DNA from: Candidatus Terraquivivens yellowstonensis
Lineage (GTDB): Archaea > Thermoproteota > Nitrososphaeria_A > Caldarchaeales > Wolframiiraptoraceae
Assembly: GCA_023539445.1 (NCBI GenBank)
Contig: JAKCEW010000001.1
Location: 1-32,049, forward strand
DNA length: 32,049 bases
Direction: 5' to 3'
This document shows positions 1,655 to 29,833 of this stretch, piece after piece (the first letter of the stretch is position 1; every line of letters begins with the position of its first letter). The translations under genes and the position numbers were made by a program. Below the pieces are notes generated by a model, which was not told where the DNA came from, made no database searches, and saw only the letters and a list, made by a program, of their open reading frames with translations.

Positions 1655-1657
1655 GAT

Positions 1658-3524: not shown

Positions 3525-3550
3525 ATTCTTGAGCGCTAAACTGGTAAGAG

Positions 3551-3557
3551 ATAAAGA
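3551..3557 (-). promoter_or_regulatory. TATA-like box for the leftward packaging block
   Basis: On the minus strand the sequence reads TCTTTAT, centred about 29 bases before the GTG at 3524. No ribosome-binding site precedes that start, so a leaderless transcript is likely. The match to an archaeal TATA box is only moderate. Confidence 0.35.
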
Positions 3558-3601
3558 GAGCCGACCGAGCGGCCTCCCCGAACGTCTGCCGGCTAATCTA
3601 A

Positions 3602-3608
3602 TTTATAA
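3602..3608 (+). promoter_or_regulatory. TATA box for the rightward tail block
   Basis: TTTATAA is centred 25 bases before the ATG at 3630, the normal distance to an archaeal transcription start. No Shine-Dalgarno sequence precedes the ATG, so the first tail gene is probably translated from a leaderless message. It lies in the 105-base divergent region 3525-3629. Confidence 0.5.
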
Positions 3609-3629
3609 CCCGTGAATGCAACATGACGG

Positions 3630-4585: not shown

Positions 4586-4740
4586 ATTGGGAAGACTACG
4601 TGATTTTGTTAACTGGTCTGGCAAGTTTCTTCGCTGCCATATCACAATTGGAGCCTAGGCTTGCAATCGTACCGATAGTCCTAGGAGCCATCATCAAAGC
4701 GTTGAAGGATATCAAGACTGAGCTTGAAAGGAGGGGTTAA
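4582..4740 (+). CDS. 52-aa small membrane protein
   Basis: A short frame of 52 residues (MNWEDYVILLTGLASFF...) has one or two hydrophobic segments, about 7-20 and 27-38, and a charged C-terminal tail (KDIKTELERRG). Its ATG overlaps the stop of the preceding membrane-protein gene (ATGA, 4582-4585), and its stop is one base before the tail-tube ATG. The end of the gene carries the GGAGGGG that serves the tail tube. Perfect packing between neighbours and a coherent membrane profile support it as a real gene. It may work with the upstream membrane protein, for example as a holin pair, but this is a guess. Confidence 0.65.
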   Translation: MNWEDYVILLTGLASFFAAISQLEPRLAIVPIVLGAIIKALKDIKTELERRG

Positions 4741-4741
4741 T

Positions 4742-5629
4742 ATGCCTAGGTACCTTGGAGTTGGAAAGGAAAGCACGTATGGAACAGCAACAGCAGCGAC
4801 CGTCTGGTACGACATAATCCGCGAGAACATGGCCGCAAAAAGGACGACGATACTTGACAGGGACACAGTGGCCGACAGGCAACTCAGTAAGGTGGCGAGG
4901 GGCGAGGAATATGTCGAAGGAGAAATCGAAATGTACCTGAATTCTCAGCAAATAGGTCACCTACTGCTCTCATGTCTCGGTAATGTTGTAACAACTGGTA
5001 CGGGACCATACACGCATATATTTTCCGTTGCCGATTCCTTGCCATCGCTAACCCTTCGCTCTGGCCTAGACAATGTAAAAGAGAAGATTGTTATGGGTGC
5101 TGTCGTGGACACTTTGGAGATAGTGGCTGAGGTTGGTAAAGCGAGGGCCAGGGCAGGAATCATAGGAAGACAGCTTATGTTTGGTGACGTGGGTAGCCCA
5201 AGCTTCACGGAAAAAGAAGACTTTACGCATGGTGACGTGACTATAACGATTGGTGACACAACGAAGAGGCCAAGACGTATGATGCTCAGGATTGGTAACA
5301 ACCTCGAACGGGTTCACGTATTAGGTGACTACTACCTGTCGAAGTTGAAACCAAAGAAGTTCGAGGTTACGGGCTCGTTTGAGCTAGACTTGGAAAGCGA
5401 GGCGGAGTACCAAGACTTTCTTTCATTAACGCCAAGGAGTTTAAACATCAAATTCGAAAAGGATGACCATAAAATAGAGTTTGACATAGAGCGCTTCGTG
5501 TATACAGATGCTAAGGTTGAAGTTCGCGGCCGAGAGCTTCTCGTGGCCAGCTTTGAGTTCGTCGCGCTAAAATCAGACCTACAAGACGCTGTCAAGATCA
5601 TACTCGTGAATGACGATGAGGGGTACTGA
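4742..5629 (+). CDS. Major tail tube protein
   Basis: This 295-aa protein would polymerise into the tail tube. The N-terminus 'MPRYLGVGKESTYGTATAAT' followed by 'GEEYVEGEIEMYLNSQQIGH' and 'LLLSCLG' is a hallmark of phage tail tube proteins. The remainder is a series of strands, consistent with a tube beta-sandwich plus a further beta domain (FEVTGSFELDLESEAEYQDF). The start at 4742 is chosen because GGAGGGG lies about six bases upstream; a GTG/ATG-like longer form from 4724 would lie inside the 52-aa gene. It is followed by the tail chaperone genes, as expected. Confidence 0.82.
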   Translation: MPRYLGVGKESTYGTATAATVWYDIIRENMAAKRTTILDRDTVADRQLSKVARGEEYVEGEIEMYLNSQQIGHLLLSCLGNVVTTGTGPYTHIFSVADSLPSLTLRSGLDNVKEKIVMGAVVDTLEIVAEVGKARARAGIIGRQLMFGDVGSPSFTEKEDFTHGDVTITIGDTTKRPRRMMLRIGNNLERVHVLGDYYLSKLKPKKFEVTGSFELDLESEAEYQDFLSLTPRSLNIKFEKDDHKIEFDIERFVYTDAKVEVRGRELLVASFEFVALKSDLQDAVKIILVNDDEGY

Positions 5630-5631
5630 GC

Positions 5632-5928
5632 TTGAAGGTCAAGTTAGATGATAAAGAATACGAAATAAGGCTGACAGTGAAAGCATGGCCACTTCTCGTG
5701 TTCATAGATGACAGAAGACTTAACGCACCGAAAAGTGCTGAAGAGGCTATCAAGAGGGGGGAAGAACTGGACCAAGCGTTGGAAAAGCTCATGGAGATGT
5801 GCGTCGCACCAAAACCACCAAAGGAGTTATGGGGTAAACTACTCGGCATAATCAACATCGAAGAAAATAGGCAACTCAAGGAAGCAATAGAACTCTACGA
5901 AAAATTTCGTGGAGAGCACCGAGGGTGA
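5632..5928 (+). CDS. Tail assembly chaperone, first part (gpG-like)
   Basis: The 98-aa protein starts with a short beta segment (VKLDDKEYEIRLTVKAWPLL) and continues as charged helix. Its position directly after the tail tube and before the tape measure is the standard place of the first tail chaperone, which coats the tape measure during assembly. It begins with TTG at 5632, two bases after the tail-tube stop, with GAGGGG about ten bases upstream. The second chaperone-like frame follows in another frame; an A5 run near the end (5900-5904) could permit slippage. No long sequence signature exists for this family, so the call is positional plus general profile. Confidence 0.65.
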   Translation: MKVKLDDKEYEIRLTVKAWPLLVFIDDRRLNAPKSAEEAIKRGEELDQALEKLMEMCVAPKPPKELWGKLLGIINIEENRQLKEAIELYEKFRGEHRG

Positions 5929-5929
5929 A

Positions 5930-6082
5930 ATGTTGATTCTGAATGTAGCGTCGCTTGCTTTTGAACTTGGAATAAGGCCAAGCGACTTGCTCTCTAGTAG
6001 CCTATCAGATTTTGTATTGGACATGAAGATTGCTGAATTGTACAAGCGGAAGGTTGAGAACATTATGAGGGAAAGGACATGA
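5930..6082 (+). CDS. Tail assembly chaperone, second part (gpT-like)
   Basis: This 50-aa frame, 'MLILNVASLAFELGIRPSDL' then a helical tail, has the look of the short downstream part of tail chaperones: a hydrophobic helix, 'G(I)xPS', then a helix-rich end. In many tailed viruses this part is made only as a frameshift extension of the first chaperone. Here it also has its own ATG at 5930 with GAGGGTGA just upstream, one base after the previous stop. The frame is open upstream to 5891, so a fusion product is possible. Its stop overlaps the next start by ATGA. Confidence 0.6.
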   Translation: MLILNVASLAFELGIRPSDLLSSSLSDFVLDMKIAELYKRKVENIMRERT

Positions 6083-6537
6083 TTCAGATTGAGGATCGCG
6101 GCTTCAAGAAAGTTTTTGAATTGTTAAGCGAGGATAAGATGTCTGAGGTACTGAGCGAGTTAATCAGAACCTCTACTCAGAATGTCAAGGATTTTGTGAA
6201 AGACGTCATACCAGTTAAGACAGGAAGGTTGAGGGACTCTGTAAGGAGCGAGGTATTATCGACACATGATTGTCAGGTGATTGTGGGGAATGCCAACGCA
6301 CATTATGCATTCTTCGTTTTTCATGGAACAAGACCGCATGTCATAGAGCCAAACAACGCGAAAGCGCTAAGGTTCGAGGTAAACGGCCATATAATCTTCG
6401 CAAGAAAAGTATTCCATCCAGGAACTGAGCCCATACCGCTATGGATGTATTTGGTAGAATCGATGCACGTTACCCTACCTAAGTTTGCACAAGAGGTACT
6501 TGACAGAACGTTGAGTGTATCACAAAAAGGTGAGTAA
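6079..6537 (+). CDS. HK97 gp10-like tail/neck completion protein
   Basis: The 152-aa protein contains 'PVKTGRLRDSVRSEV' (residues 45-59), then 'HYAFFVFHGTRPHVIEPN' and 'RKVFHPGTEP'. This succession (P-x-x-T-G-x-L-R-x-S, Y-x-x-F-V-x-x-G-T, then H-P-G-T) is characteristic of HK97-gp10-like proteins, small virion proteins at the head-tail joint. Usually the gene lies before the tail tube; here it lies after the chaperones. It overlaps the previous gene by ATGA. The call is fairly secure from motifs. Confidence 0.78.
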   Translation: MIQIEDRGFKKVFELLSEDKMSEVLSELIRTSTQNVKDFVKDVIPVKTGRLRDSVRSEVLSTHDCQVIVGNANAHYAFFVFHGTRPHVIEPNNAKALRFEVNGHIIFARKVFHPGTEPIPLWMYLVESMHVTLPKFAQEVLDRTLSVSQKGE

Positions 6538-6616
6538 AACGTGCTTAACTTAAGTGTCAGAGCACATCCAGGTTTAGGAAAACTTAATTGGAACCTGTAT
6601 CAATCCAATAAAAAGC

Positions 6617-6781
6617 ATGAACGTACGCATAGCCTATGTTCTAGGACTATTAATCGTTGGGCTCATTTTCTTGCTTTGTGCCATAATTTACGAGCTTTTC
6701 TTGGTGGGCGTTATAGGCTTCATCTTCATATTTTCAGCCATCTTAATCTGGAGTTTAACGAAAAGGCACTATGCTGTGTGA
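6617..6781 (+). CDS. 54-aa membrane protein, two TM helices
   Basis: The frame encodes 54 residues that are almost wholly hydrophobic: about residues 5-25 and 28-47, joined by a short turn with Y-E, and ending in 'LTKRHYAV'. The positive-inside tail and regular hairpin indicate a real membrane protein rather than chance. It fills the space between the gp10-like and tape-measure genes, and a different frame across the same DNA lacks any such pattern. No clear ribosome-binding site precedes the ATG. A holin or small membrane regulator is possible; I recognise no family. Confidence 0.6.
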   Translation: MNVRIAYVLGLLIVGLIFLLCAIIYELFLVGVIGFIFIFSAILIWSLTKRHYAV

Positions 6782-6848
6782 ATATTGAGAGCCTAACTTT
6801 CGATTTCTACACTATGGCTTTCAGGGCGGGTGCTGTATTAGGTTGAGT

Positions 6849-8543
6849 ATGGAGTATGAAATTTCCATCAGACTAAAGGGCATAGACGATGCCACACCTA
6901 CATTCAAAGATGTGACCTCCGCGATAATCGAGATGCGGAAGGGTAATGATGTTGCTAGACAGTCATTTAATGAGCTCTACAAAGAAGTCCGTGAGCAGCA
7001 AAAGATCATCCGTGTTCTGAAAGAGGAGGCAAGCGGTGCTGGTCTGACCTTTGAAGTTTTCAAAGATACGCTCAACAAATTCGGCAATGTCATGAGTGGG
7101 GTTAATAGCATCATGACGCGATGGAATCTCTTGCAAACACGACTGAACACTGCCCAAATAGCTCTCAATCAAGCACAAAGGGATTACAACGAAGCTGTTG
7201 AAAGGTTTGGACCAAATAGCGAGCAGGCAAGAAAAGCACTCGAAAGGTTGCATGAAGCACAAAAAAAGATGAACCAAACACAAATCGAGACCATCTTTCA
7301 AATGACCGCACTCGGCATAAATGCTATAACCCTAGTGCCAAAATTCATGGAACTGTATAAATCGCTTAGTGCCCTCATAGCCGTCAAGAAAATCGCAGCG
7401 GCAACATCGGCACAACTTGCTGCTGCTCAGACTGCATCAGCGGCAGCAGGTGCTGCTTCAGTACCCGGCCATCTTGCAGCTGCCGGAGGGATAACTGCAG
7501 TAGGTACAGCCGCAGCCGCGGCGTCGAAGCCTCTTGCAATTTTCAAAGCTCTTCTTGGTCCTCCGGGCTGGGCTTTGTTAGCAGGTGCGGCCGTGGCTGT
7601 GACGGCATTCTTCGCTACAGTAGGTTCTCAATCAGTTGCCGCGGAAAGAAGTTTAACATCATTCCAAAGCACAACAACTGGGACTTTCACAGCAGTTGCA
7701 TCAGAGGCTGAGATTATGGCCAGCTCGGTCTCCACATCTTTCGAGAAGATGGGACAGACACTAAAAATTTCGGGTCAGGAGTTTGCAAGCTATGCCGACT
7801 ACATTTCTGATATTACCTACAAAGCCCTGAAGAGAATCGAAGAAATCAATGCACAAATGCAATACGAGTACGAGAGGAGCATTCCTTGGTATGCGGGCAG
7901 ATACGGCGCGGAGGCGCAACTCATGCGTGAGGGACGTTGGAATGAGTTGGCGAGTATGCAAAGGGCGGGTAGCACTGGCGGATGGGGTTTCAACGTTGAG
8001 GAGCTCAGGCGTTACGGCACACCCATACCGATTGAGTGGTATTCGTCGCTCGCATCGCTCAGGCAATACTTCTACGGAAAGACGGAGATCACCTATGAGG
8101 AGATGCTCAAATCAAGCCCCGGCGCGCTCCAAGCGCAAATCGATTACATCAAATACTTTATCAGGACTCAAGAGAAGACTTTAGCCGCGAAGTATATTCC
8201 AGCATATCGCGAAGAGCTGGAAAAGCTAGAGCGGGCGTTGAGCGAGGTCACCAGAAGGCTTGAGGAGGAGCAGAGGAGGCGCGAGGCGGAGAGACAATAC
8301 AAGCGCCAGCTTGAGGAGTGGGTTGAGAGGAAAGAGTGGATGCGCGTGTTGGGCATACTGCCTGCCGTAGCATTACCAACAACACCAAAGGATTGGATTG
8401 AGCTTGCCAAAAAATACTCGGGCATCCAGCCTCCCAGCACGACTATAGTGATAAACAACCTCGAGGTGAAGGCCGATGACCCAAAGAAATTCCTCGATAA
8501 GCTGACGGAAATCGCGTCTTTGCGGGGTGAGGCTCCTGCATGA
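6849..8543 (+). CDS. Tail tape measure protein
   Basis: The protein (564 aa from ATG 6849; TTG 6843 is an alternative) sets tail length and is threaded through the tube. It starts with a beta strand typical of tape measures (MEYEISIRLKGIDDATPTF). Long amphipathic helix follows (about 30-150), then an Ala-rich hydrophobic segment with probable membrane helices (175-262, including 'GPPGWALLAGAAVAVTAFFA'). The C-terminal part is charged coiled coil (about 430-490). It is the longest helical protein of the block and follows the chaperones. Its moderate length predicts a fairly short siphovirus-like tail, roughly 80-90 nm if 0.15 nm per residue applies. Confidence 0.85.
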   Translation: MEYEISIRLKGIDDATPTFKDVTSAIIEMRKGNDVARQSFNELYKEVREQQKIIRVLKEEASGAGLTFEVFKDTLNKFGNVMSGVNSIMTRWNLLQTRLNTAQIALNQAQRDYNEAVERFGPNSEQARKALERLHEAQKKMNQTQIETIFQMTALGINAITLVPKFMELYKSLSALIAVKKIAAATSAQLAAAQTASAAAGAASVPGHLAAAGGITAVGTAAAAASKPLAIFKALLGPPGWALLAGAAVAVTAFFATVGSQSVAAERSLTSFQSTTTGTFTAVASEAEIMASSVSTSFEKMGQTLKISGQEFASYADYISDITYKALKRIEEINAQMQYEYERSIPWYAGRYGAEAQLMREGRWNELASMQRAGSTGGWGFNVEELRRYGTPIPIEWYSSLASLRQYFYGKTEITYEEMLKSSPGALQAQIDYIKYFIRTQEKTLAAKYIPAYREELEKLERALSEVTRRLEEEQRRREAERQYKRQLEEWVERKEWMRVLGILPAVALPTTPKDWIELAKKYSGIQPPSTTIVINNLEVKADDPKKFLDKLTEIASLRGEAPA

Positions 8544-10840
8544 GCTTCCCCTCGCTCTTGCTGAGGATTAAAAAAGCGGATGGATCGTGGCAAGATGTTT
8601 CTTTTGGTATCGCAAATACCGAGCTTCAGTTGAAATGGGGGAGGGAGGCGGAAGAGCTGAGTTTCTCACTGAGTGCCGAGGGTAATGAAGCAATCATACC
8701 GCTTTTTCAGACGGGCAGGGATGTGGAGCTTTACATCAATAACGTTCTGAAATTCGCTGGTTTTATAATCGAATACAGGCCGAGCGTCGAGCTAAATGCT
8801 CGGAAGATAGCCTGCAAGGCCGTAAGCTATCTCATGCTGCTGGACAGGGTCGAGGTGAACGAACAGTATGCGCCGACCGAAGTATCCCAAATTATCAAGG
8901 GTATTGCCGAGAGCGCGGGGCTTTTAACCTCGGGCATCGAGCCGACGGGCCTTATCCTTTCGCCGAATTTCAGACACCAGAGTGGCCTAAAAGCGTGCTT
9001 GGAATTGGCGGAGAAGGCTGGATGCATCATCAGAACAACACCTGAAAAGGTTTTGTTGTTCAAGCCCCGGGGATTCGGCAATAATATTATAACAAATCCG
9101 TCATTCGAAGTCGATGCCGGCTGGACGTTAAAGCAGTATGTCGGCTCTCCCTCGGTCGCTTATGATACTTACGATGCTCGTTCAGGTAACAGTTGCATAA
9201 AGATTGATTGTATTAATGCGGGAGACGTTGGTGGAGTTGAGCAAGTAATAAACGTCGAAGCGGGAAAGCGCTACAGGTTCTCGGTATGGATGAAAGGGAC
9301 GAATACGGGCAGGCTTTCGGTCACATGGCTTGCCTCAGACGGCTCCGAGATTTCTACGGATTTGCAAGATTTGGCGCTAACGTCAGAATACAGAGAAATA
9401 GTTGTTAATGCCGTCGCACCACCGAGTGCGGCTCAGGCAAGGGTTTCCGCCATATGTTTAGGCCAAGGCGTCGGGCGGATCGATGACATGTATGCCGTGA
9501 AGGTTCATGAGTTGCTCGACACGAAAAACATAATCAAAGCATCAAAGAGCGAGAAGGATTACCTCAGACGTAATAAAATCATAGTTGTTGGCGGGTGGGA
9601 CGAGAACGGCCAAAGGATTGAGGCGGTGGCGCAGGAGGGCGCGGGCGACAGACCCCTGACAATCTACGATTTGACGATAACGAGCGCCCAGGATGCCGAG
9701 AGAATCGCGAGGCAGAAGCTTGAGCAGCTAAAGGTCACGCCCGTTATGCTTGATATCTTGGCCGATGGTGATGCGGGATTCGAGGCTGGCGATTACGCGT
9801 ATGTAGAAATCGGATGGCTCGGCATCGACGGTTATTACCTTATTGAAAGCGTTGAGCATGATTTTTCGGGTAGGATTTTTCTGAGCAGACTTTCGCTCGT
9901 GAACCCTGAGTATGTTCACAAGGATTATCTCGAGAGTCTGGCCGATACGCTGAGCAAAACCAAGCGAATCGAGCTGCCCACACCATCAGCCGAAAAGGAA
10001 AAAACGCCCGCATCAACGACGGTTTACAGACTCATAAATTACCCGCCCCTTGAGTTGGAGAATGCGCAAAACATTATGCTGGACTCGAACGGCTATGCAA
10101 CGCTATCCTCTGGTGCCACATTCGGCAGTTTCGAGATATTGTGCACGCCTGTCGCCATACTGTTCAGGCGATGGCTCAGGGTAGGAGCCGATTTTGATGA
10201 GCGAGAGGGCGATGTGATCGTGAAACTAAAACGCATTTCGGATGGTTATACCGAGACCATCATGATAGATCCTCCGGGCACTTATGAAATACCGTATCTG
10301 CCCGATGCTCGTGGATTGTGGACGGAGGACAGCTCGGAATGGGATGCTGAGGGTGCCAATTTGAGTGATTTTGATACTAGACTTTTCGGCAATAAGAGTG
10401 TCAAAGCCGTCGCGTCATCCTCGCCTTTCCGTGTGATATACCCAAAAACAAGGGATGCGAGCTGGGATCTAAGCGGTTTCAAGGAAATGGTGCTGTGGAT
10501 ATTAGCGAATGCTACATGTATAGCGAGCGTAAGATTGCATACCGATAGCGCCAATTATTTTATGAAAACATTTACGCTCGAGACCGCTAATGCTTGGATA
10601 CCATACACGTTCAAGCTGTCGGAGTTCACACAATCGGGCTCTCCCTCGCTCTCGAATATAAACTACTTCTCGCTCGAGTTCCAGAGTCCCGTGACATGGG
10701 TCGCTATAAATGCTGAATTCGTGTTTGTCAAGTATGGTTATGAGAAAATAGCGCTCGTTTTCGAACTTTCGCGTCCCTCGGCGGACAAACAGAGCCCTGT
10801 AGTAAAAGAGGCGAGGTTTGTATGGGTGGGTGGTGAATAA
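8540..10840 (+). CDS. Tail tip hub protein with inserted and C-terminal beta-sandwich modules
   Basis: The 766-aa protein follows the tape measure by ATGA overlap. Residues 1-180 and 324-475 look like the two halves of a gp27/Tal-type tail hub, for example 'DVELYINNVLKFAGFIIEYR' and later 'YLIESVEHDFSGRIFLSRL'. Between them, residues 181-323 form a self-contained jelly-roll resembling carbohydrate-binding modules ('NPSFEVDAGW', 'GKRYRFSVWMKG'). After a Pro/Lys linker (476-495) a second beta-sandwich spans about 590-735 ('LWTEDSSEWDAEG' to 'WVAINAEFVFVKY'). The hub should close the tail tip and the modules may touch cell-surface glycans; ligand binding is inference. Confidence 0.75.
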   Translation: MSFPSLLLRIKKADGSWQDVSFGIANTELQLKWGREAEELSFSLSAEGNEAIIPLFQTGRDVELYINNVLKFAGFIIEYRPSVELNARKIACKAVSYLMLLDRVEVNEQYAPTEVSQIIKGIAESAGLLTSGIEPTGLILSPNFRHQSGLKACLELAEKAGCIIRTTPEKVLLFKPRGFGNNIITNPSFEVDAGWTLKQYVGSPSVAYDTYDARSGNSCIKIDCINAGDVGGVEQVINVEAGKRYRFSVWMKGTNTGRLSVTWLASDGSEISTDLQDLALTSEYREIVVNAVAPPSAAQARVSAICLGQGVGRIDDMYAVKVHELLDTKNIIKASKSEKDYLRRNKIIVVGGWDENGQRIEAVAQEGAGDRPLTIYDLTITSAQDAERIARQKLEQLKVTPVMLDILADGDAGFEAGDYAYVEIGWLGIDGYYLIESVEHDFSGRIFLSRLSLVNPEYVHKDYLESLADTLSKTKRIELPTPSAEKEKTPASTTVYRLINYPPLELENAQNIMLDSNGYATLSSGATFGSFEILCTPVAILFRRWLRVGADFDEREGDVIVKLKRISDGYTETIMIDPPGTYEIPYLPDARGLWTEDSSEWDAEGANLSDFDTRLFGNKSVKAVASSSPFRVIYPKTRDASWDLSGFKEMVLWILANATCIASVRLHTDSANYFMKTFTLETANAWIPYTFKLSEFTQSGSPSLSNINYFSLEFQSPVTWVAINAEFVFVKYGYEKIALVFELSRPSADKQSPVVKEARFVWVGGE

Positions 10841-13306
10841 GTGCCTCAGGAAATAAAGTATTCGAAATTGGAAGGTGAAATGGCGACCTACGTCCTCGGC
10901 AATACTATTCCCGCCGAGGATGAGCAAAAAGTCAGCACATTAAGGCAATCATTTTCGCAATCAATAAGTGAGGGGACGGTTATCCAGCAGGCCTCGACGG
11001 GTTCGACCTTCGACGTTTACGGGAGCAGATGGGTCGCACAACCAATAATTAATGCCACCTCGAACGTTCTCAAGATAACCAAGGTTGCGTGGTATGGGGT
11101 AAAGGGTGGGACACCACCAGGAGATTTAAGAGCCGAGATCCGCAAAATAAACCCATCGTTAAACGAAATCGCAATCTATACGCTAGGCACGGACACGCGG
11201 CTGGCGCAGTATGAGCCTATTGGCGGAGATTATATGGTGGCGCAGGCGTTCTATGTCCCCGTAAGCACGCGCCTAACAAAGGTTACATTCACAATCTGGA
11301 AACCGACGCAGAATGCGAAGTTGGCGCTCAAAAAGAGGAAGTTGCTCTGGAGGTTTGATAACCTGTTTGATTTAACGTGGACTGTACCGTCGGCCAGCGA
11401 TAACATACCGGCCACCTCTGGAACTTATTGGCCGAGAGAGGTGCTGAATATTTCCGATGCCGTTTTTGAGGTAGAGTTGAGCGCAATATACAACTATTCG
11501 GGAACGTATATAATATTTGGTACGAGGGCGAGCGATACAAATAATGCATACGGTTTTTATGCAGGATATTCCTCTACGGCAAAGTTTTATAAAAAAATTG
11601 GTGGTGCGGAAACGGTATTAATAAGCTACCCCACTCTCTCAGGTAACGCGGTTTATCTTACACGAATCAGGCAGGTCGGTAGCCTTCATCAAGTATATTT
11701 TGCGCACACAAATGACGTTAGGGAGGTTACAGATTCAGCGCGCTCATCTGGCTCGGTATTTGTAACAATAGGTGTTAATGCCGCATACCCTAAGGCGGAT
11801 AACATTCGAATATATGAGTCCGATGCAAATTACATTATCATTTACGGGCTATCGCCCGACAACTATGTGGAGCTCCTCGATAATACCAACGCGGTCATAG
11901 CGACAGCTACGGCCGATAGTCAGGGCATCGCAAAGATATACGTATTCAACTTACCGAAAAACACACCATTCCGCGGCATGAAAGTATATACCGATTCCTC
12001 AAAGAGGACGACGCTATACTCAACAGGCTCATCCGAAGTAATATACGACAACATCTTTTCAGGGGACGAATTCGAATACCAAAGCTCGCCGAGCTACACT
12101 ATTCAGGACTTGGAGGTTTTGCTTGTCGAATGTAATGATGATAGAAGTCCGAATTTAAATAAAGTTATAACTACGCGAACAGTATCGGCATCGAGTATAG
12201 GAACATCGCCGGCAACCGTAACTATCAGTTTCTCTCCAGATTATCCGGCCTTAACAGGCGGCAAGTATTATGCAATCGTCCTGAGGCAGAAAGGTGGCGG
12301 CACGACCTTTACGCCCTATGCCGTTAGACTCAGGGAAACGCACCGTCAAAGAGAGCCGACGTATTACCCGTTTTTCCGCTCTGTTGATGGAGGGTCGACG
12401 TGGAAGCGACAGGGCGGCATATTTTGTATTGAAGGGAGCATATACATGATGGCATTAGCGCCGAGCCTTTACCCCGATGCTGTCCTTGCCTCGGCATCAT
12501 GGACGGCTTCAGAAATTGGCACATCAGCCGCTTGGTATGAAAAAGCCCTTGATACGCCCGTGTATCTCGCGCCGGGGGATGCTGTAGTACTATTAATTTA
12601 TCAGTCTGGAGGCCTAGGCAGTAGCAGCAACTATTACAGGGTTAATTATGCCACATGGACGGATAATAACACGAGCGCAAACGACCTATACGGTCCGCTT
12701 AACAAAGATTATTGGAAATGCTATCTTTTCGCATTCTTGTCGAGCACGGATGGAGGTGTTACATGGAGCGCAACAACCAACGGAGACCTGAGCTTCCAGA
12801 TAAAGGGCTATACGGCCGTGCCTCTATTCTCAACAAATCTCGTCCTTGACGAAAAAATCAAGCGCGTTAGAACGACGGTAACTGCTAGGGTTCTCAGCGG
12901 CAACACGATATATTTCCTCACGAAGGTTGGCGGTTCTCAGGTAAAGGAATCATCAACGACTGCCATGTTTTTAACGGACGTCATTGCATTCCCAGAAAGC
13001 GAGGCAATACCCGATACGGGTACTGTTACGCTAACGATTTATGTCATGGGGACGGGAGAGGTATGGGAAATCAGGACGCAACGTTTTGTCTGCAATGAGA
13101 AAAAGACAATAACGCCGAAAGACTTGGGCTTTGCGGAGCTATATCTTCTCAAGGCAGAGATCCCGACGGGCGGAAGCATCAGAATCAACGAAAAAACCGA
13201 ACTGGGAGGGGGGACGCATTCGTTCTCGGAGTTCAATTATCCCGTTAAGAAGGTGGAAATAATCAACACAAATACGGCAACCCTGCACTTTTTAGGGGTG
13301 AAGTGA
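10841..13306 (+). CDS. Receptor-binding / tail fibre protein with lectin-like domain
   Basis: The 821-aa protein starts at GTG 10841, directly after the hub stop. It is almost entirely strand-forming and rich in Ser, Thr, Tyr and Asn, as tail fibres are. About residues 170-330 read like a concanavalin-type lectin ('FEVELSAIYNYSGTYIIFG', 'RIRQVGSLHQVYFA'). Two later segments repeat one scheme: a 'SxxxIGTSxA' strand, then 'G-x-x-YYAIVL' or 'PGDAVVLLIYQSGG', then 'S(V/T)DGGSTW' or 'STDGGVTW' (about 450-535 and 550-650). These look like tandem beta-sandwich modules. Host-surface recognition is the likely role, from position and composition. Confidence 0.65.
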   Translation: MPQEIKYSKLEGEMATYVLGNTIPAEDEQKVSTLRQSFSQSISEGTVIQQASTGSTFDVYGSRWVAQPIINATSNVLKITKVAWYGVKGGTPPGDLRAEIRKINPSLNEIAIYTLGTDTRLAQYEPIGGDYMVAQAFYVPVSTRLTKVTFTIWKPTQNAKLALKKRKLLWRFDNLFDLTWTVPSASDNIPATSGTYWPREVLNISDAVFEVELSAIYNYSGTYIIFGTRASDTNNAYGFYAGYSSTAKFYKKIGGAETVLISYPTLSGNAVYLTRIRQVGSLHQVYFAHTNDVREVTDSARSSGSVFVTIGVNAAYPKADNIRIYESDANYIIIYGLSPDNYVELLDNTNAVIATATADSQGIAKIYVFNLPKNTPFRGMKVYTDSSKRTTLYSTGSSEVIYDNIFSGDEFEYQSSPSYTIQDLEVLLVECNDDRSPNLNKVITTRTVSASSIGTSPATVTISFSPDYPALTGGKYYAIVLRQKGGGTTFTPYAVRLRETHRQREPTYYPFFRSVDGGSTWKRQGGIFCIEGSIYMMALAPSLYPDAVLASASWTASEIGTSAAWYEKALDTPVYLAPGDAVVLLIYQSGGLGSSSNYYRVNYATWTDNNTSANDLYGPLNKDYWKCYLFAFLSSTDGGVTWSATTNGDLSFQIKGYTAVPLFSTNLVLDEKIKRVRTTVTARVLSGNTIYFLTKVGGSQVKESSTTAMFLTDVIAFPESEAIPDTGTVTLTIYVMGTGEVWEIRTQRFVCNEKKTITPKDLGFAELYLLKAEIPTGGSIRINEKTELGGGTHSFSEFNYPVKKVEIINTNTATLHFLGVK

Positions 13307-22431: not shown

Positions 22432-23901
22432 TCAATATCTTAACTTTTCCATGAGGTACCTTTTGAGGTCCTTGATAGCTATCCTTTCTTGGTTCATCGT
22501 ATCTCTATCCCTGATAGTAACGGTTTCGTCTTCCATCGTTTGATAGTCTATAGTTACGCAAAACGGCGTGCCTATTTCGTCTTGTCTCCTATAACGTCTA
22601 CCTATGGAGCCACTATCGTCATAAACCGTATCAAAGTCCAGCTTTAATGATTCGTAGACTTCTTTCGCCTTTTTGTCCAAACCATCCTTGGTAACGAGCG
22701 GGAAGACCGCTACTTGAACCGGTGCCAACATGGGCGGAAGTTTTAAGACCGTCCTTTCGCTTTCCTTCACGTAACTATGCTCCAATATGCAGAGGAGGCT
22801 TCTGTCAACACCCATGGAAAGCTCGAATACATGTGGTATGATTTTTTCCCCATCATCGTAAACACTCAAATCCTGACCACTAACTCTAGAGTGACCGGAG
22901 AGGTCGTAGTCTGTCCTGTTGTTGCAAGCAACCAGCTCTATCCATCCGATGCTCGTCAAGACCTCTACATCCCATGCTTCCTTCGCATAAAATGCTCTTT
23001 CCTCATCACTCAACTGTCTTAGCCTGAATCTTTCCATGTCAATGCCTACGATTTGGTAGAAACGCTGTATGAGGGCAAGGTAATAGGCTACAAGCATGCT
23101 AGATATAAGACCTGTTTCAACACTCTCCTTGCAAGATACTTTGAGGATTTTATCCTCGTTCAAAGGCTTCAATCTTAGAATGAAGTCCTCGTATTCGCGC
23201 GCCTTTGGGAAATCGTTCGCCTTCTTCGGGTTGAAAAAGACTTCGATTTCTGCTTGATAAAATTCTCTAAGCCTAATCAAAGATTGTCTGGGCGATATTT
23301 CATTCCTAAAGCTCTTACCGTATTGCGCAATCGCAAACGGGAGTTTCTTTCTCATTGTTTTGTAAATCCTAAGGAAGTCAACAAATATGCTTTGGCAAGT
23401 TTCCGGTCTAAGGTAACACTCATCCCCCGATACACCAACGTTTACTCTGAACATCATGTTAAACTTTGAAACTTTGTCAAGCTTACCTTTGCAATTTGGG
23501 CAGACCACATTATGTTCTAAGATAAGCTTATCCATATCTTCCGTGGCTAACCTCTCAGGTACTGGAAACCCTAGAACTTCCTCAAGCAACTTATCAGCCC
23601 TGAAGATGGCATTGCACGATTTGCACCTAGTTATCGGATCGGTGAAGCTCTCAAGGTGTCCGGACGCTACGAATACCCTTTTTGGCATTATTTGAGAGCC
23701 GTCTATCTCCACCATTTCATCCCTTCTAATCAGCTCTCTTCGCCAAACCTCTATGTACTTGTTCTTCATTGAGACTGCCAGCGGCCCGTATTCGTAGAAG
23801 CCTGCAGGCGCATCGCTATATATCTCAGAAGATGGGAAGAAGAAGTTTCGCTCAAGTGCCAGCCTGACTATCTCGTTGTATAACGAGGTTGTTGATTCCA
23901 T
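22432..23901 (-). CDS. glyS: Glycyl-tRNA synthetase (class II, archaeal/eukaryotic type)
   Basis: The enzyme charges tRNA-Gly with glycine. The protein (489 aa from ATG 23901; GTG 23925 gives eight more) shows 'SDAPAGFYEYGPLAVSMKNK' near the N-terminus and a zinc-binding pair CKSC and CPNC. Class II motif 2 is 'FRNEISPRQ', the motif 3 region reads 'FELSMGVDRSLL', and the C-terminal anticodon-binding domain includes 'GRRYRRQDEIGTPFCVTID'. All belong to the homodimeric GlyQS type rather than the bacterial alpha2beta2 form. It lies 14-38 bases after the membrane RING gene on the same strand and before the DUF47 and endA genes, so these may share a transcript. Confidence 0.95.
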   Translation of the reverse strand: MESTTSLYNEIVRLALERNFFFPSSEIYSDAPAGFYEYGPLAVSMKNKYIEVWRRELIRRDEMVEIDGSQIMPKRVFVASGHLESFTDPITRCKSCNAIFRADKLLEEVLGFPVPERLATEDMDKLILEHNVVCPNCKGKLDKVSKFNMMFRVNVGVSGDECYLRPETCQSIFVDFLRIYKTMRKKLPFAIAQYGKSFRNEISPRQSLIRLREFYQAEIEVFFNPKKANDFPKAREYEDFILRLKPLNEDKILKVSCKESVETGLISSMLVAYYLALIQRFYQIVGIDMERFRLRQLSDEERAFYAKEAWDVEVLTSIGWIELVACNNRTDYDLSGHSRVSGQDLSVYDDGEKIIPHVFELSMGVDRSLLCILEHSYVKESERTVLKLPPMLAPVQVAVFPLVTKDGLDKKAKEVYESLKLDFDTVYDDSGSIGRRYRRQDEIGTPFCVTIDYQTMEDETVTIRDRDTMNQERIAIKDLKRYLMEKLRY

Positions 23902-23938
23902 ACCGCTTAGGGATTGATATAACACTTAGTTAAAAGGT

Positions 23939-24634
23939 TTATCTGATTACGGGCTTCTTACAGCTTGGACATATACCGTTTAACTTTACCCAAATGTCGA
24001 TGCAACCTTTATGGAATAACGTTTGACAGTTGCTGCACATAACAGTAGTTTCTGGGTCCAGCTCTTGATAACATATACCGCAAATTGCACCGGGAGGCAC
24101 ATCTGTTGCATGCAGTAATTCAACAGCCTCTTCAACAGCCGGGACTGAAGTTTCAAGAGAAGGAGGTACTGTATGAGGTAGCACTTCAATCCTGATAGGG
24201 GTGGTTATTATAGTGACGGCAGGAACGAACATTGCTATTGCCGAAAGATAGGACATGAACATTCCTATTTCTAAATGTCCCTTTACCTGCAACGCAGGTA
24301 TTACTACAAAATGTGCATAAGCTGGCGATGCAATAGCGAGAAGGGCTCCGACAAGCGCAGTGGCTCCGACGAGCCACTTTGCTGTCATTATATTTGATGA
24401 GGTGGAGGACAGCAAAAGCGCGATTCCACAAACTATACCGCCAGCAATTGACATGAAAAGAGACTCAGTGATGATGTATCCTTGTATGGGAGTTGTGGAC
24501 ATGGTGTCTGATATTACGGTGTACCATGACATGAGTAGCGTGAGGATATGAACTGCACCAATTCCGGCCACGATTAGTGCTAGTTTAAAAAACCGCCCCA
24601 ACACCGCTTGGGATGAAACCTCCAAACCCACCAC
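23939..24634 (-). CDS. Membrane-anchored RING-type zinc-finger protein
   Basis: The 231-aa protein has four predicted membrane helices (about 17-36, 58-77, 86-112, 123-145). A roughly 35-residue linker follows, then a cytoplasmic-looking zinc finger at the C-terminus. The ligands are C185, C188, C200, C203, H208, C211, C222 and C225, that is C-x2-C-x11-C-x2-C-x4-H-x2-C-x10-C-x2-C. The ligand order and spacing match the soluble RING protein at 25917-26147 almost exactly. Eukaryotic RING proteins with membrane anchors act as ubiquitin ligases on membrane proteins; a similar role here is inference. GTG 24634 is the start, 27 bases after an AT-rich TATA-like box, and the gene leads the glyS-DUF47-endA run. 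Confidence 0.75.
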   Translation of the reverse strand: MVGLEVSSQAVLGRFFKLALIVAGIGAVHILTLLMSWYTVISDTMSTTPIQGYIITESLFMSIAGGIVCGIALLLSSTSSNIMTAKWLVGATALVGALLAIASPAYAHFVVIPALQVKGHLEIGMFMSYLSAIAMFVPAVTIITTPIRIEVLPHTVPPSLETSVPAVEEAVELLHATDVPPGAICGICYQELDPETTVMCSNCQTLFHKGCIDIWVKLNGICPSCKKPVIR

Positions 24635-24772: not shown

Positions 24773-25612
24773 ATGGGTTTTCTTGGAGGAAAGTCCAAAG
24801 AAGAGATCCTTAACGAGTTTAGAAGAGAGTTAGATGAGCTCAGGCTTCAGCTTGAGGAGAGGATAGATAATAGGATTAGTTCGCTTGAAAGAGCACTCAT
24901 TGAAGTTTCAGAAAACGTTAGAACACTTGCAAAAGAAAAAACATTTCCAGAAGAGTTCCTAGCGAGAGTAAGCGAGGCAGCAATGAGTGCAGAGAGTGTC
25001 GTTAAGGAGTTGAAAGTCATAAGAGAATACAAGGAATGGTTCGATTCCATCAAAGAAGGGCTTAACGATGTTTTAGAGTTGCTTTCACGAGAGAGGTCGA
25101 TGCTCAGGGAAGATGTGGAAAGGTTGATTAAAGAAAAAAGCGAACTTGAGGTTCTCAAAAACGAACTAAGAAAGTGGAAGGCAGATCTTGACGAGAAAGA
25201 GCACAAGCTATCAAACTTTAACGCATATGTTAAGGAGCTTGAGGATAAGAAAAACAGAATAGAGGCGGAGCTTAAGGATCTATCCCAACGTTACTTGACG
25301 TCCTTAGAAGAAATGCTACATAAGATTGATGAGGAAGTAAATAAGATAGATCGCATGTTTAAGCTAAAGGAGATAAGGCTTGAGAGGATTGCGAGAAAGG
25401 AGAGAGAATTATCGGACGCTCTTATGAGGATAAAGGAACGTGAAGAGATGATGCGCGAGCTAGAAAATAAAGTGCGAGAGATGAATGAAGAGATCTCCAA
25501 GCTAGAGGCAAAGAAAACAGAATTGTTAAATGATATAAACGAGCTTACAGAGCGCAAAGCAAATTTGGAAAAGTTGGTGGGAGAATTTAGAAAAGCTATA
25601 CTTACTCCTTAA
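24773..25612 (+). CDS. Long coiled-coil protein of unknown function
   Basis: The 279-aa protein is nearly all charged heptad repeat from residue 8 to the end, in two long runs broken around residues 58-70 and 160-175. A short glycine-rich head (MGFLGGKSK) precedes it. There is no ATPase motif, so it is not an SMC protein. It may be a structural or scaffold protein. A TATA box (CTTTTTATAC, 24734-24743) and a GTGAG five bases before the ATG support the start. It converges on the small coiled-coil gene of the ubiquitin-like cluster with a four-base overlap (25609-25612). Confidence 0.7.
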   Translation: MGFLGGKSKEEILNEFRRELDELRLQLEERIDNRISSLERALIEVSENVRTLAKEKTFPEEFLARVSEAAMSAESVVKELKVIREYKEWFDSIKEGLNDVLELLSRERSMLREDVERLIKEKSELEVLKNELRKWKADLDEKEHKLSNFNAYVKELEDKKNRIEAELKDLSQRYLTSLEEMLHKIDEEVNKIDRMFKLKEIRLERIARKERELSDALMRIKEREEMMRELENKVREMNEEISKLEAKKTELLNDINELTERKANLEKLVGEFRKAILTP

Positions 25613-25920
25613 TCTTTTCTAAGAGTTTTCTCCAAAGTTTCAATCAAACTATTGAAGGCCTCTATAAGCGAATCTATATGTGCAAGTATCTGATCTTGGC
25701 CTTTCTCTAGAGCCGCTAATCTGCTTTCCAATCTGTTTAATAAATCGGTGCTAGGCATTTTATTTTCAAGCGATTGAACCTTACTTGAGATTTCTTCAGC
25801 TTCCTCATGGACCATGGAAATTGCTTCAGCTAATTTCTTGACAGTATTGAGCGATGCCACTTTTCCAGCAGGCGTATCTACGTACTCAAGATCTATTACA
25901 AACTCTTCTTCCTCGCTCAT
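25609..25920 (-). CDS. Small coiled-coil protein in the E1-RING operon
   Basis: The 103-aa protein starts with an acidic, strand-like segment ('SEEEEFVIDLEYVDTPAG', 2-19). Two helices with heptad pattern follow (about 25-53 and 57-101). Its ATG overlaps the stop of the RING gene as ATGA (25917-25920), so it is translationally coupled to it. That placement makes a role with the RING or E1 proteins plausible, for example as an adaptor. No domain is recognised and a general coiled-coil function cannot be excluded. Confidence 0.7.
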   Translation of the reverse strand: MSEEEEFVIDLEYVDTPAGKVASLNTVKKLAEAISMVHEEAEEISSKVQSLENKMPSTDLLNRLESRLAALEKGQDQILAHIDSLIEAFNSLIETLEKTLRKD

Positions 25921-26147
25921 ACTACCATCTCCAGCACTGGCCTCTTACATATCGGACAGGCATTCCTTATACTTAACCAGCTATCAAAACACGCCTTATG
26001 ACCTACCGTTCCGCAATGAGGACATGTTGTTGTAGCAACACCCTCACTAATTTCGGAGGCACAAATCGGGCACATCCTGCTCACCGTCTTAGTTTTTGTC
26101 CAAATCCACTTGCCTACACAAGTCTCATTTCTTACCACTATTCTCAA
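25917..26147 (-). CDS. Small RING-finger protein, putative E3-like ligase
   Basis: The 76-aa protein is little more than a RING-type finger: C26, C29, C42, C45, H50, C53, C64 and C67, spaced C-x2-C-x12-C-x2-C-x4-H-x2-C-x10-C-x2-C. It corresponds in size and position to the small RING finger protein of the Caldiarchaeum ubiquitin-like cluster. RING proteins bring charged E2 and substrate together. The chosen start is TTG 26147, because GGTGAG lies about five bases upstream; this overlaps the E1 gene end by 23 bases. A start at the ATG of C26's preceding Met would leave only the finger. Confidence 0.82.
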   Translation of the reverse strand: MRIVVRNETCVGKWIWTKTKTVSRMCPICASEISEGVATTTCPHCGTVGHKACFDSWLSIRNACPICKRPVLEMVV

Positions 26148-27315
26148 TAAAGCTCACCTTTATGGGTATTGGCATGTACCGCCTACTCGTGTGGATATAC
26201 AATATGTCGTCGCTTTTAATGTTTATCTCTGACAGCTTTTGATCGTCTTTTAATATCCATTTTTTATACTGGATTTCGGGGTCCGGGATGCTAAATAAAG
26301 CACTTACCTTCTCCTTCAGATTCCATACACAGTCATCGGAATTGGCTGTTATCTCGATTGGTTCTCCTCCTTGCATAACATCACCGCAGACAAAGCAATC
26401 CTCCCTTCTTTTTAAAGGAACTTTGGTTAACCTTTGCGATGCACCATCGTATACTATAAGATGCTTTGTTACCTTTCCGATGCTCCCACCATGTATTATT
26501 TTTAGCACTTCTAAAGATGCCACACCCGATATAACTGATGCCCCTCCTTGAATCGCCGGCAACTTAGGCTTTAACAGATCCCTTAGTCTGATTATCTCTT
26601 CAGAAATTTTGCTATGCTCTTTTTGGAGCCTTTCTATCGGCGTGTATTTAAGGTCGTAAATTGTTTTTATACCCATAGAAAATAGTTCTTTAACAAGCTC
26701 GAAAGGTACCTCAATTTTGTTTTTCCTTAGGTCCTCGGCGAGGTCCTCTGGTTTACGTCTTCTGAGCGTACATTCGGCCAACTGCGTGTCCTTAGGGATT
26801 AGGGCGTCACCATGACATTCAAGACATGCCGTTTCTCCTGGTATTACAACCTGCACATTTCCGTATAGACCTTCGATTGCTGTGTCAACAAGCGGTTTCT
26901 TAAGTTCGACGGCAAGCGAGTTAAGCCACCTTCTCGTTGCCCAGTTGTCTAAGCAGGAGCAAAAAACATCCACATCTTTCAGCAAAGATTCATCAAACTT
27001 TCTTAAGTCCTCATAATAAGCATCAACCTTAACGTAGGGGTTTATCTTCTGAAGCTTCTCTTTGGCAACAATGGCTTTTGGCAAGCCTATATCAGAATCC
27101 TCAAAAAGCATTTGACGGTTAAGGTTCGAGAGTTCTACCACGTCGTTATCAACCAAGATTAGCTTGCCGATTCCTGCGAGGCAGAGGTTCTTTGCCAACT
27201 CGCAACCCGTCGCGCCCACGCCCGCTATTAAGACCGTTGAGTTCGAGACCTTCCACTGATTCCAGCCGCTGATTCTTATCTGCCTGTCATATCTTTCTAG
27301 CAGGTATGGCTCCAT
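26125..27315 (-). CDS. E1-like ubiquitin-activating enzyme
   Basis: E1 adenylates the C-terminus of the ubiquitin-like protein and captures it as a thioester. The 396-aa protein has a ThiF/UBA-type adenylation domain: nucleotide loop GVGATG (32-37), 'VDNDVVELSNLNRQ' (55-68) with the ATP-site Arg67, K80, and D123 in 'CLDNWATRR'. A candidate catalytic Cys182 sits in 'AECTLRRRKPEDL', as in UBA3-like enzymes. Structural zinc is probably held by C164/C167 and C307/C310. Residues 318-376 look like a beta-grasp ubiquitin-fold domain that would recruit E2. Thus it resembles a eukaryotic E1 half rather than MoeB. It has its own TATA box. Confidence 0.93.
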   Translation of the reverse strand: MEPYLLERYDRQIRISGWNQWKVSNSTVLIAGVGATGCELAKNLCLAGIGKLILVDNDVVELSNLNRQMLFEDSDIGLPKAIVAKEKLQKINPYVKVDAYYEDLRKFDESLLKDVDVFCSCLDNWATRRWLNSLAVELKKPLVDTAIEGLYGNVQVVIPGETACLECHGDALIPKDTQLAECTLRRRKPEDLAEDLRKNKIEVPFELVKELFSMGIKTIYDLKYTPIERLQKEHSKISEEIIRLRDLLKPKLPAIQGGASVISGVASLEVLKIIHGGSIGKVTKHLIVYDGASQRLTKVPLKRREDCFVCGDVMQGGEPIEITANSDDCVWNLKEKVSALFSIPDPEIQYKKWILKDDQKLSEINIKSDDILYIHTSRRYMPIPIKVSFIENSGKK

Positions 27316-27407: not shown

Positions 27408-27923
27408 CTACATTCGCCACTTTAGCTTTTTCTCAAATACCTTTTCTGGGGTTGCATAAAGCTGTATGTAGTACCTAACCCTATTGAAAAAAACGTCGGG
27501 CCTATATTTCATTTCATAAGCCGCTATCGAGTTAAGCGGGTCGTCTGGGTTTGGATTGGCTAATAGATTCTGGAGTGCCTCAACAATGTTCACGAGGTAC
27601 AACCCAGGTCTCCAGTCATCTTTAAAAATGGATTCGCATATCCTAGCAGGAACCTCGTCTGTAAAATTAGGATGCCATACCCTTGTATGCCAGATAACAT
27701 TTGGCGGCACGTATGGGTATGCCCTTGGTATTTTTATCTCTACCTTAAAGTACCCACCCTCATAATACCCAGAGCCCACTATCACACCTGTATAGTGTGT
27801 CAGGTCACCATCAACTATGTCGAATAATGGAGGGTCGCGCTCCTGCATCAATCTATACTCTACGGCCAACCTCTTATTCCATAGAGGTTCGGGTAATTCT
27901 GAGTAAGTCTCCAGAGGTGCCAC
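27408..27923 (-). CDS. E2-like ubiquitin-conjugating enzyme (UBC fold)
   Basis: The 171-aa protein has the UBC fold: N-terminal helix 'NKRLAVEYRLMQERDPP' (16-32), strands through 'YYEGGYFKVEIKIPRAYPYV', the HPN motif (84-86) and the catalytic Cys96 ten residues later ('PARICESIF'). A tryptophan and proline follow in the usual place ('DDWRPGLYL'), and two C-terminal helices close the domain. It should accept the ubiquitin-like protein from E1. The start is GTG 27923, inside the Ub gene; the N-terminal helix needs residues upstream of the next Met, so no later start works. The 50-base overlap with Ub implies coupled translation. Confidence 0.93.
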   Translation of the reverse strand: MAPLETYSELPEPLWNKRLAVEYRLMQERDPPLFDIVDGDLTHYTGVIVGSGYYEGGYFKVEIKIPRAYPYVPPNVIWHTRVWHPNFTDEVPARICESIFKDDWRPGLYLVNIVEALQNLLANPNPDDPLNSIAAYEMKYRPDVFFNRVRYYIQLYATPEKVFEKKLKWRM

Positions 27924-28155
27924 CCCCCACCGTTCTTGTTATGATGACCAGTTTGTCGCCTTCTGATATACCTAAGTCAGTAAGTGTTTCCGTTTCTTTT
28001 AAAGCTCTACCCTTGTAAGTTAAGTATGTAGTGTCTGGCGGAAGTTTCTTAATCGCACAGACCTTAGCCTTAATTGCCCCTATTGTTGCATTTGGAGAAA
28101 CTTCTAACTCTAGAGGGCTACCACCACCGACTGCAGGTATAACCTTGATTTTCAT
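27874..28155 (-). CDS. Ubiquitin-like protein precursor with C-terminal tail
   Basis: The 93-aa protein aligns by eye with eukaryotic ubiquitin across its length, notably 'TIGAIKAKVCAIKKLPPD' (24-41) against the ubiquitin helix. A glycine run G77-G79 stands where ubiquitin ends in GG. Fourteen or fifteen residues follow, so the protein must be trimmed before E1 can use it; the JAMM protease next door is the obvious candidate. At the K48 position of ubiquitin it has Arg50, while lysines corresponding to K27 and K29 are present (K29, K31). The ATG has GGGGGT about ten bases upstream and a TATA-like box at 28191-28200. Confidence 0.93.
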   Translation of the reverse strand: MKIKVIPAVGGGSPLELEVSPNATIGAIKAKVCAIKKLPPDTTYLTYKGRALKETETLTDLGISEGDKLVIITRTVGGGTSGDLLRITRTSME

Positions 28156-28349: not shown

Positions 28350-28985
28350 ATGAGGGCACGCATTTATCCTCTAGCTCTTGGTAAGATACTTCATCATGCT
28401 ATTAGTAACATTAATCAAGAAGTTGCAGGGTTAATGGTGGGAAAAGTAGTATCGGACGTTGTTGAGGTCTGGGATACCGTTACTGGTCCTCAACAGAGCA
28501 CGCCTGCATACGTTAAGCTCGAAGAGAATGTTATGGCCTTGGTTGCTGAAGTTTTGATAGAAAACCTTCCAGACCTATACATAGTTGGCTGGTATCATTC
28601 ACATCCGGGTTTAGATGTCTTTATGTCACCTATAGATGTCGAGACGCAAAAAGCCTACCAAACCATGTTTCCTAAGGCCATAGCGTTAGTTGTTGATCCC
28701 CTACAATTTAGCGCCAGCTGGAAAGTCTCGGACCTAAAGATCGGCGTGTTTAGAATAGATAAAAATGGAAAGGTCGTGCCAGTAAGGTTCACGCTTGGTT
28801 TACAACGGCGTAAAGTCCTTGAAAGCACGCTGGTAGGTCTCCAAATGCTTGATTTGATTCCTAGGAAAGCCGACGTGGCTGATGAGGAGAGTGTAAAGAC
28901 TAGTACCGCCAAAATGCTTGACCTTGATCATATAGTAAAGTTTTTTAGCAAAACCAAGAAACTTTTACCAAGTAGGAAGGGATGA
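28350..28985 (+). CDS. JAMM/MPN+ metalloprotease, Rpn11-like deubiquitinase
   Basis: The 211-aa protein carries a complete JAMM zinc-protease site: E24 in 'QEVAGLMVG', then H83-x-H85-x7-S93-x2-D96 in 'WYHSHPGLDVFMSPID'. Proteins of this type in eukaryotes (Rpn11) remove ubiquitin at the proteasome. In this setting it should cut the Ub precursor after its glycines and also reverse conjugation. A C-terminal helical extension (about 150-211) lies outside the catalytic domain and ends in a basic tail. The gene runs divergently from Ub and is followed by a coiled-coil gene. Confidence 0.93.
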   Translation: MRARIYPLALGKILHHAISNINQEVAGLMVGKVVSDVVEVWDTVTGPQQSTPAYVKLEENVMALVAEVLIENLPDLYIVGWYHSHPGLDVFMSPIDVETQKAYQTMFPKAIALVVDPLQFSASWKVSDLKIGVFRIDKNGKVVPVRFTLGLQRRKVLESTLVGLQMLDLIPRKADVADEESVKTSTAKMLDLDHIVKFFSKTKKLLPSRKG

Positions 28986-29035: not shown

Positions 29036-29833
29036 ATGCCAAAAAAGATAGTTATAAAGTTTAAGGAAGAAAAAATGGCGAAGGACGTAGTGGAAGAGAC
29101 CTCTCAGGTAGAACCTGAGGTGAGTACTGCAGAAATTGAGACGAAAATTCAAGCAAAACCGCCTGAAAGTATCGCTGCACCTAAAGATCTTGAGGCATCT
29201 ATTGTGAAAGAAGCTTTCGAAGGATACGACGCACTTATGGCAAAGTTACAAGAAATAAAGATACGGGAACAAATATTCCAAAAGATGCTTCTGGAGCAGG
29301 ACATCAGTATAGCAACTATCAAAGAGATATTGTCAAGATGGAATGCGATGAGGGAGCAAGTAATTGGTGAGTCGGCATCCTTGATTGAAAAAATTAATGC
29401 TGCTAAGAGTAAACTGGAAACAGAGTTTTCCAATATTGAGACAGATTTATACATCTCGGTCGTCGAATTGGATACGCTGAAATATAAGGAAAGTTCGAAC
29501 ATCCCTGTACCTCAGGAGCTTAAAGCAGGCTTAGAAACAAAAATCACAATCCTCAGACAAGAACTTTCCGAAAAGAAAAAGAAAATTAAAGAGTTGGAAG
29601 AAATGGTTAAGACGGTTACCGAGTTACCGAAAAAAATTCACTCCTTGACGACGTACACTGAGCTTGCTGACAAACTTTACGAAGAGCTGAAGGAAAAGCA
29701 TGGGGCGAAGTTTGGCCCAAGGGTTGACGAGTCTTTACAAAAAAATATAGAAAACATCATGCAGTCTTTGGGCATACCTAGGGAATATGCAATAATACTT
29801 ATCTGGAAGGAGGCGCAAGCCCCCGCCAGCTAA
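29036..29833 (+). CDS. Coiled-coil protein downstream of the JAMM protease
   Basis: The 265-aa protein has a basic N-terminal segment ('MPKKIVIKFKEEK'), an acidic, probably disordered stretch (15-50), a long helical region with heptads (about 55-205), and a folded C-terminal end ('AKFGPRVDESLQKNIENIMQ' to 'EYAIILIWKEA'). GGGAGGGG lies five bases before the ATG, and the gene begins 50 bases after the JAMM stop, so they are likely co-transcribed. This suggests a partner or substrate adaptor for the protease, but no known domain supports it. Confidence 0.7.
   Translation: MPKKIVIKFKEEKMAKDVVEETSQVEPEVSTAEIETKIQAKPPESIAAPKDLEASIVKEAFEGYDALMAKLQEIKIREQIFQKMLLEQDISIATIKEILSRWNAMREQVIGESASLIEKINAAKSKLETEFSNIETDLYISVVELDTLKYKESSNIPVPQELKAGLETKITILRQELSEKKKKIKELEEMVKTVTELPKKIHSLTTYTELADKLYEELKEKHGAKFGPRVDESLQKNIENIMQSLGIPREYAIILIWKEAQAPAS

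Follow-up and report, generated by a model that had tools for sequence, protein, structure and literature searches.

What is known of the ubiquitin (Ub) cascade in archaea is a minimal set of soluble E1, E2 and RING proteins. The locus studied here, within a window of 32,049 nucleotides (the whole stretch of DNA that was analysed) from the hot-spring archaeon Candidatus Terraquivivens yellowstonensis, raises the question of whether a second RING protein, anchored in the membrane, belongs to this system. The Ub cluster of the window comprises, on the reverse strand, genes for a ubiquitin homologue in its pro-form with GG plus a tail (27874..28155; ubiquitin 9.3e-13), an E2-like protein (27408..27923; UQ_con 5.9e-28), an E1-like protein with a C-terminal Ub-like domain (26125..27315; ThiF 1.2e-62, ubiquitin 1.5e-5) and the operon RING, henceforth srfp (25917..26147), an orthologue of the Caldarchaeum subterraneum E3 with biochemical proof (PMC5654768); a divergent, Rpn11-like JAMM deubiquitinase follows on the forward strand (28350..28985; JAB 2.2e-21). 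The gene in question, which we refer to as memRING (23939..24634, reverse strand, GTG start, 231 aa), encodes a four-helix membrane domain, a linker and a C-terminal RING. It starts 1,282 bases away from the srfp stop, which agrees with the placement of a second RING near the Ub cluster in an earlier, sequence-only reading of the window. Between the two RING genes lie a conserved, divergent coiled-coil gene (cc279; 24773..25612, forward strand) and a conserved small coiled-coil gene on the same strand as memRING (cc103; 25609..25920, reverse strand), whose start overlaps the srfp stop. On the other side, memRING is followed on its own strand, after a gap of 13 bases, by the glycyl-tRNA synthetase gene glyS (22432..23925, reverse strand). 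A third coiled-coil gene (29036-29833, forward strand) stands beside the JAMM gene, and the coiled-coil genes of the cluster are widely conserved in the order, with dN/dS values of 0.03-0.08 that indicate strong purifying selection. A separate region of the window (62-13306) looks like a provirus or its remnant, with large ORFs, a head/tail-like order and a terminase-like protein first.

We found that the C-terminal finger of memRING (residues 184-231; 23939..24085, reverse strand) is a RING. Its ligand pattern, C-x2-C-x11-C-x2-C-x4-H-x2-C-x10-C-x2-C, has the same eight ligands as that of srfp, and the finger alignment reproduced the claimed one-residue difference in one spacing (x11 versus x12, all other spacings being identical). 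The ligand order is C4HC3 and not that of RING-H2 (C3H2C3): in both archaeal fingers the position of the canonical fourth-ligand His is occupied by T, A, V, M or E, and an extra Cys is found three residues upstream of the third canonical ligand. This order and the PHD-like C-x2-C-x4-H-x2-C spacing speak for an alternative: a zinc module resembling PHD, C1 or FYVE domains, which would serve structure or ligand binding and play no part in ubiquitylation, and whose neighbourhood would be inherited synteny. Weak Pfam matches of the finger to PHD (PF00628; 23.2 bits, below the cut-off of 24.0) and to C1 point the same way. By contrast, zf-RING_2 (PF13639) matched memRING with 37.9 bits (curated cut-off 27.3, E=2.1e-9) and was matched by 25/25 aligned members, and the PDB sequence matches of the finger were RING E3s (RNF24, Arkadia, EL5, ZNRF1, Praja-1, HRD1 and gp78). 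An AlphaFold2 model of the RING alone, built without zinc, reached a pLDDT of 95, and its best 50 Foldseek matches were all RING or U-box proteins (e.g., RING1B, RNF13, RNF165 and RNF12, several of the matches solved with an E2), with no PHD among them. The model has the cross-brace RING/U-box fold (rmsd 1.3 over 49 columns to 4s3o_B, and 1.7 over 48 to 5d0i_B); the VIA comparison was less clean, with TFIIH p44 and spliceosome RING-like chains among the top rows, tied at Z 6-7.5. Structure modelling hence returned neither of the folds, zinc ribbon or PHD, against which the sequence-only reading had set its RING, and we reject both in place of a RING on profile scores, structural matches and the E2 residues described below.

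We then considered the residues through which RING domains contact an E2. All eight ligands were kept in 37/37 memRINGs, as was the proline after C7 (P223 in the window), while the second variable position of the CxxC motif (I187) was I in 36/37 and L in 1/37, and the helix position (W215) was W in 35/37 and Y in 2/37. The linchpin position after the last Cys (K226) was K in 19 of the 37, including the memRING of the window, and G, N or Q in the others. The equivalent positions of C. subterraneum srfp (I30, W58 and R69) are needed for its full activity (PMC5654768). Selection was uneven along memRING, with a dN/dS of 0.11 overall, 0.30 in the relaxed linker and 0.045 in the RING, the last being comparable to the values for E1, E2 and Ub (0.039-0.048; E2 0.039). 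The nearly invariant residues suggest that the RING of memRING bears an E2-type surface. They also count against a zinc module without a ubiquitin role: they hardly vary in memRING even though srfp of one family (f2; see below), with its ligands intact but the I and W gone, proves that such a finger can exist without E2-contact residues. The operon finger, whose ligands are arranged alike, moreover belongs to a proven E3 family, and we regard that alternative as distinctly unlikely.

The membrane domain of memRING (residues 1-150; 24185..24634, reverse strand) precedes the finger, and its four helices, noted in the sequence-only reading, were recovered by AlphaFold2 and by the K+R topology. 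In the full model (mean pLDDT 85, helices mostly >90) the helices span residues 8-34, 56-78, 82-115 and 123-144, short beta strands are predicted on the outside (36-41, 47-51 and 119-121), and the linker at 151-167 has low model confidence and is disordered. Averaged over 25 homologues, K+R counts were 2.4 at the N terminus, 0.4 in loop 1, 2.4 in loop 2 and 0.8 in loop 3. These counts place both termini inside by prediction, and thus the RING on the cytosolic side, with the E2.

Foldseek and VIA matched the membrane model throughout to the superfamily of claudins, TARPs, calcium-channel gamma subunits, GARLH4 and MP20. VIA Z scores against claudin-type folds were 11-13 (rmsd 2.7-4.0 over 124-146 residues), with 5gjv_E as the best match (Z 13.3, rmsd 3.8 over 143) and claudin-4 close behind (Z 13.1, rmsd 2.8 over 132); a Z of about 13 from a predicted model lies at the edge of the range reached by unrelated helical bundles. 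Sequence identity in these alignments was 4-13%. Neither PMP22_Claudin nor any other membrane-domain family was among the listed Pfam matches of 25 memRING members at E up to 10, and a profile of the transmembrane part alone found this domain nowhere outside memRING in 200 phylum genomes; a search for literature on archaeal claudin-like proteins gave nothing relevant. The likeness to claudin, PMP22, TARP and Cav-gamma proteins consists of a four-helix bundle with N-in/C-in topology, outside beta strands and a long third helix, all by prediction, whereas memRING differs from claudins in having no claudin Cys pair, no Pfam match and a fused RING. Given Z scores near the background of helical bundles, no link by sequence profile and such low identity, we describe this as a claudin/TARP-type tetraspan fold held in common by prediction, and not as membership of the superfamily.

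This predicted fold brings in another reading, namely that memRING is a membrane sensor or transducer, in which the claudin-like outer beta layer would respond to a signal from outside and control srfp, or access to the E2, instead of choosing substrates. W37 and G52, both conserved, sit at that end of the membrane domain which faces outward, and the known proteins of claudin/TARP-like fold are adhesion or auxiliary-subunit proteins, both of which would suit such a role. A common fold shows no function, though, and we consider this reading highly improbable.

To place memRING in a wider setting, we turned to its distribution in the order (Aigarchaeota/Caldarchaeales, i.e., Ca. Terraquivivens, Wolframiiraptor, Geocrenenecus, Pelearchaeum and Caldarchaeum subterraneum; 44 genomes). 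A full-length profile found memRING in 41/44 of these genomes and in 0/354 other genomes of the phylum, four of which gave weak, RING-only matches; a search for viral carriers gave none. An oddity specific to the window is ruled out by this order-wide presence, which, like the Pfam E value and the dN/dS figures above, also speaks against a product of chance. Of the three genomes missing memRING, two (G020 and G037) are fragmented assemblies, and the third (G006, 95%-complete) has the Ub cluster without memRING on a contig that ends in unrelated sequence, with glyS near the edge of another contig. E2 and Ub were found in 44/44 order genomes and in none of 17 phylum outgroups tested, so the co-occurrence of memRING with the Ub system, whose absence the sequence-only reading had named as refuting it, held, usually with adjacent genes. 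Nearly all genomes of the order encode two zf-RING_2 proteins, memRING and srfp.

Gene order was likewise conserved: glyS adjoins memRING in 36/36 loci examined (inverted in one), and families f1, f3 and f4 share the order glyS-memRING-cc279-cc103-srfp-E1-E2-Ub-JAMM. In family f2 the Ub-E2-E1 genes and JAMM are found elsewhere, while memRING, cc279 (and cc103) and srfp mostly remain together beside glyS; in genus g9, glyS-memRING alone remains and srfp is no longer adjacent. Order-wide presence and recurring gene order mean that memRING and the Ub system were inherited together once by the whole clade, without repeated, independent gain or loss, and hence that their co-occurrence is strong as evidence of conservation, not of repeated association.

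Two further loci were recorded in this comparison. In another genome of the phylum, one without an E2 or Ub match, an ORF (L123; G051:C69, 5811-6542, reverse strand) combines N-terminal hydrophobic segments with a C-terminal RING; this RING probably lies outside a Ub system, and it lends some weight to the zinc-module alternative, as a membrane RING in a genome without an E2 need not mean ubiquitin. Separately, in genus g9 a single ORF of 274-288 aa begins with a Ub-like domain that ends in GG and closes with an E2-like domain (G028:C2:193249-193947 and G040:C29:11575-12270, i.e., loci L121 and L122, and also in G041 and G043), with a JAMM gene next downstream and, in L121, an E1-like gene before the fusion. 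This is a second, Ub-E2 fusion system in that genus.

The two RINGs differ most in family f2. There, srfp kept all ligands and the linchpin K/R but had lost both contact residues (I replaced by A in 8/9 and V in 1/9, W by L in 9/9), whereas memRING kept I and W in 12/12 and had G at the linchpin in all; this split of hallmarks counts as a single evolutionary event. In the E2 of f2, loop 7 changed from PS/PG to PN (or AN), while the loop-4 proline motif was kept. With I and W lost from the operon RING and kept in memRING, memRING is the better E3 candidate in this family. The contrast thus points to memRING acting with the E2, in f2 perhaps as its principal partner, or else to a division of labour between both RINGs.

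The same split would also fit a reading in which memRING is a non-catalytic RING partner, i.e., one half of a heterodimer or a membrane dock for srfp, with E2 binding and linchpin on different partners. With I/W on memRING and K/R on srfp, the hallmarks in f2 are divided in just this way; moreover, most f2 genomes keep both RING genes and cc279 (and cc103) as one group despite the relocation of E1, E2 and Ub, and heterodimers of the RING1B-BMI1 type are among the top structural matches. Against this, both fingers mostly carry both hallmarks outside f2, srfp is not adjacent to memRING in genus g9, the split is one event, and C. subterraneum srfp is active in vitro without memRING (PMC5654768). 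We therefore consider a purely non-catalytic partner unlikely and a ligase in its own right the better reading.

A tree of RING domains (52 columns) separated memRING and srfp into two clades (96/89), each containing f2 as a clade, which dates the split of the two RINGs to before that of the families. An origin by duplication of a ligase, as the sequence-only reading had suggested, is plausible given that both fingers have the unusual C4HC3 set and form two old clades, whose root is unplaceable on 52 columns. The N-terminal tail of srfp carries an invariant G-x-W (G12 and W14) in all families (srfp alignment). In sum, C. subterraneum srfp resembles memRING in its eight ligands, in all spacings but for one residue, in its E2-contact residues and in its gene cluster; memRING differs in having four transmembrane helices, in lying outside the operon, in being conserved in its own right and in forming a separate finger clade.

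The sequence-only reading knew of no description of this gene as part of the archaeal system, and in this it did not stand: in Fuchs et al. 2018 (PMC6043591), ‘a second E3 protein’ is already noted next to the C. subterraneum operon and counted as one of two RING proteins described as ‘small’. This second E3 is almost certainly the memRING orthologue, since a Caldarchaeum genome (G027) encodes exactly two zf-RING_2 proteins, srfp and memRING, the latter being the only other one and beside the operon. The passages of that paper that concern it call it small and do not give its membrane domain, topology, distribution or selection. For an aigarchaeote, Grau-Bove et al. (PMC4327156) gave a count of as many as nine RING genes of C3H2C3 type. 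In the papers and passages searched, neither the membrane domain and its fold nor the retention of E2-contact residues or the shift in f2 is described. What is new, relative to that literature, is thus the membrane domain with its predicted claudin/TARP-type fold, and not the existence of a second E3. Among eukaryotic proteins, HRD1, gp78/AMFR, ZNRF3 and RNF13 likewise carry a cytosolic RING after a membrane domain, and HRD1, AMFR and ZNRF3 were among the sequence matches of the memRING finger. The membrane domains of eukaryotic membrane RING E3s are different ones, though, and their RINGs are C3H2C3 or C3HC4 as opposed to C4HC3; we saw no evidence for common descent of the two architectures.

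Finger type, topology, conservation, co-occurrence and gene order provide computed support for a membrane E3. The ligase identity proposed from the sequence is plausible, and we consider it likely that memRING serves the Ub system of the Caldarchaeales (Aigarchaeota) as a RING E3 ligase anchored in the membrane and works with the cluster's E2. Several findings count against this: a linchpin K/R is present in 19/37 memRINGs and replaced by G throughout f2, the co-occurrence goes back to one inheritance, G006 has the Ub cluster but no memRING, a genome without an E2 (G051) also encodes a membrane RING, and the closest neighbour is glyS and not a Ub gene. For E2 binding, ligase activity, substrates and the fate of the targets we infer the following. 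The four-helix domain with its outside beta layer would anchor memRING in the cell membrane, and a flexible, Pro-rich linker would hold the RING on the cytosolic side, where it would bind the cluster's E2 via I187, W215 and P223 and stimulate transfer of Ub onto membrane or membrane-proximal proteins. From there, Cdc48 might pull the modified proteins out and the proteasome break them down; the genome encodes two genes for the former and three for the latter.

To our knowledge, a RING ligase with a claudin/TARP-type tetraspan membrane part is known in no organism. A bolder reading, which we hold tentatively and think somewhat doubtful, is that memRING joins such a part to a prokaryotic membrane RING Ub ligase, that it has become the RING on which E2 binding mainly rests in one family of archaea, and that it is an archaeal precursor of, or a parallel to, the ubiquitylation of membrane proteins in eukaryotes. 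Judging from a conserved membrane RING beside the cluster, under selection as strong as that on the E2, diversification of E3s and their targeting to the membrane exist in an archaeon. Ubiquitylation of membrane proteins may thus predate eukaryotes or be a parallel development, and memRING offers a small, testable system for it, in which family f2 supplies an operon RING already mutated by nature.
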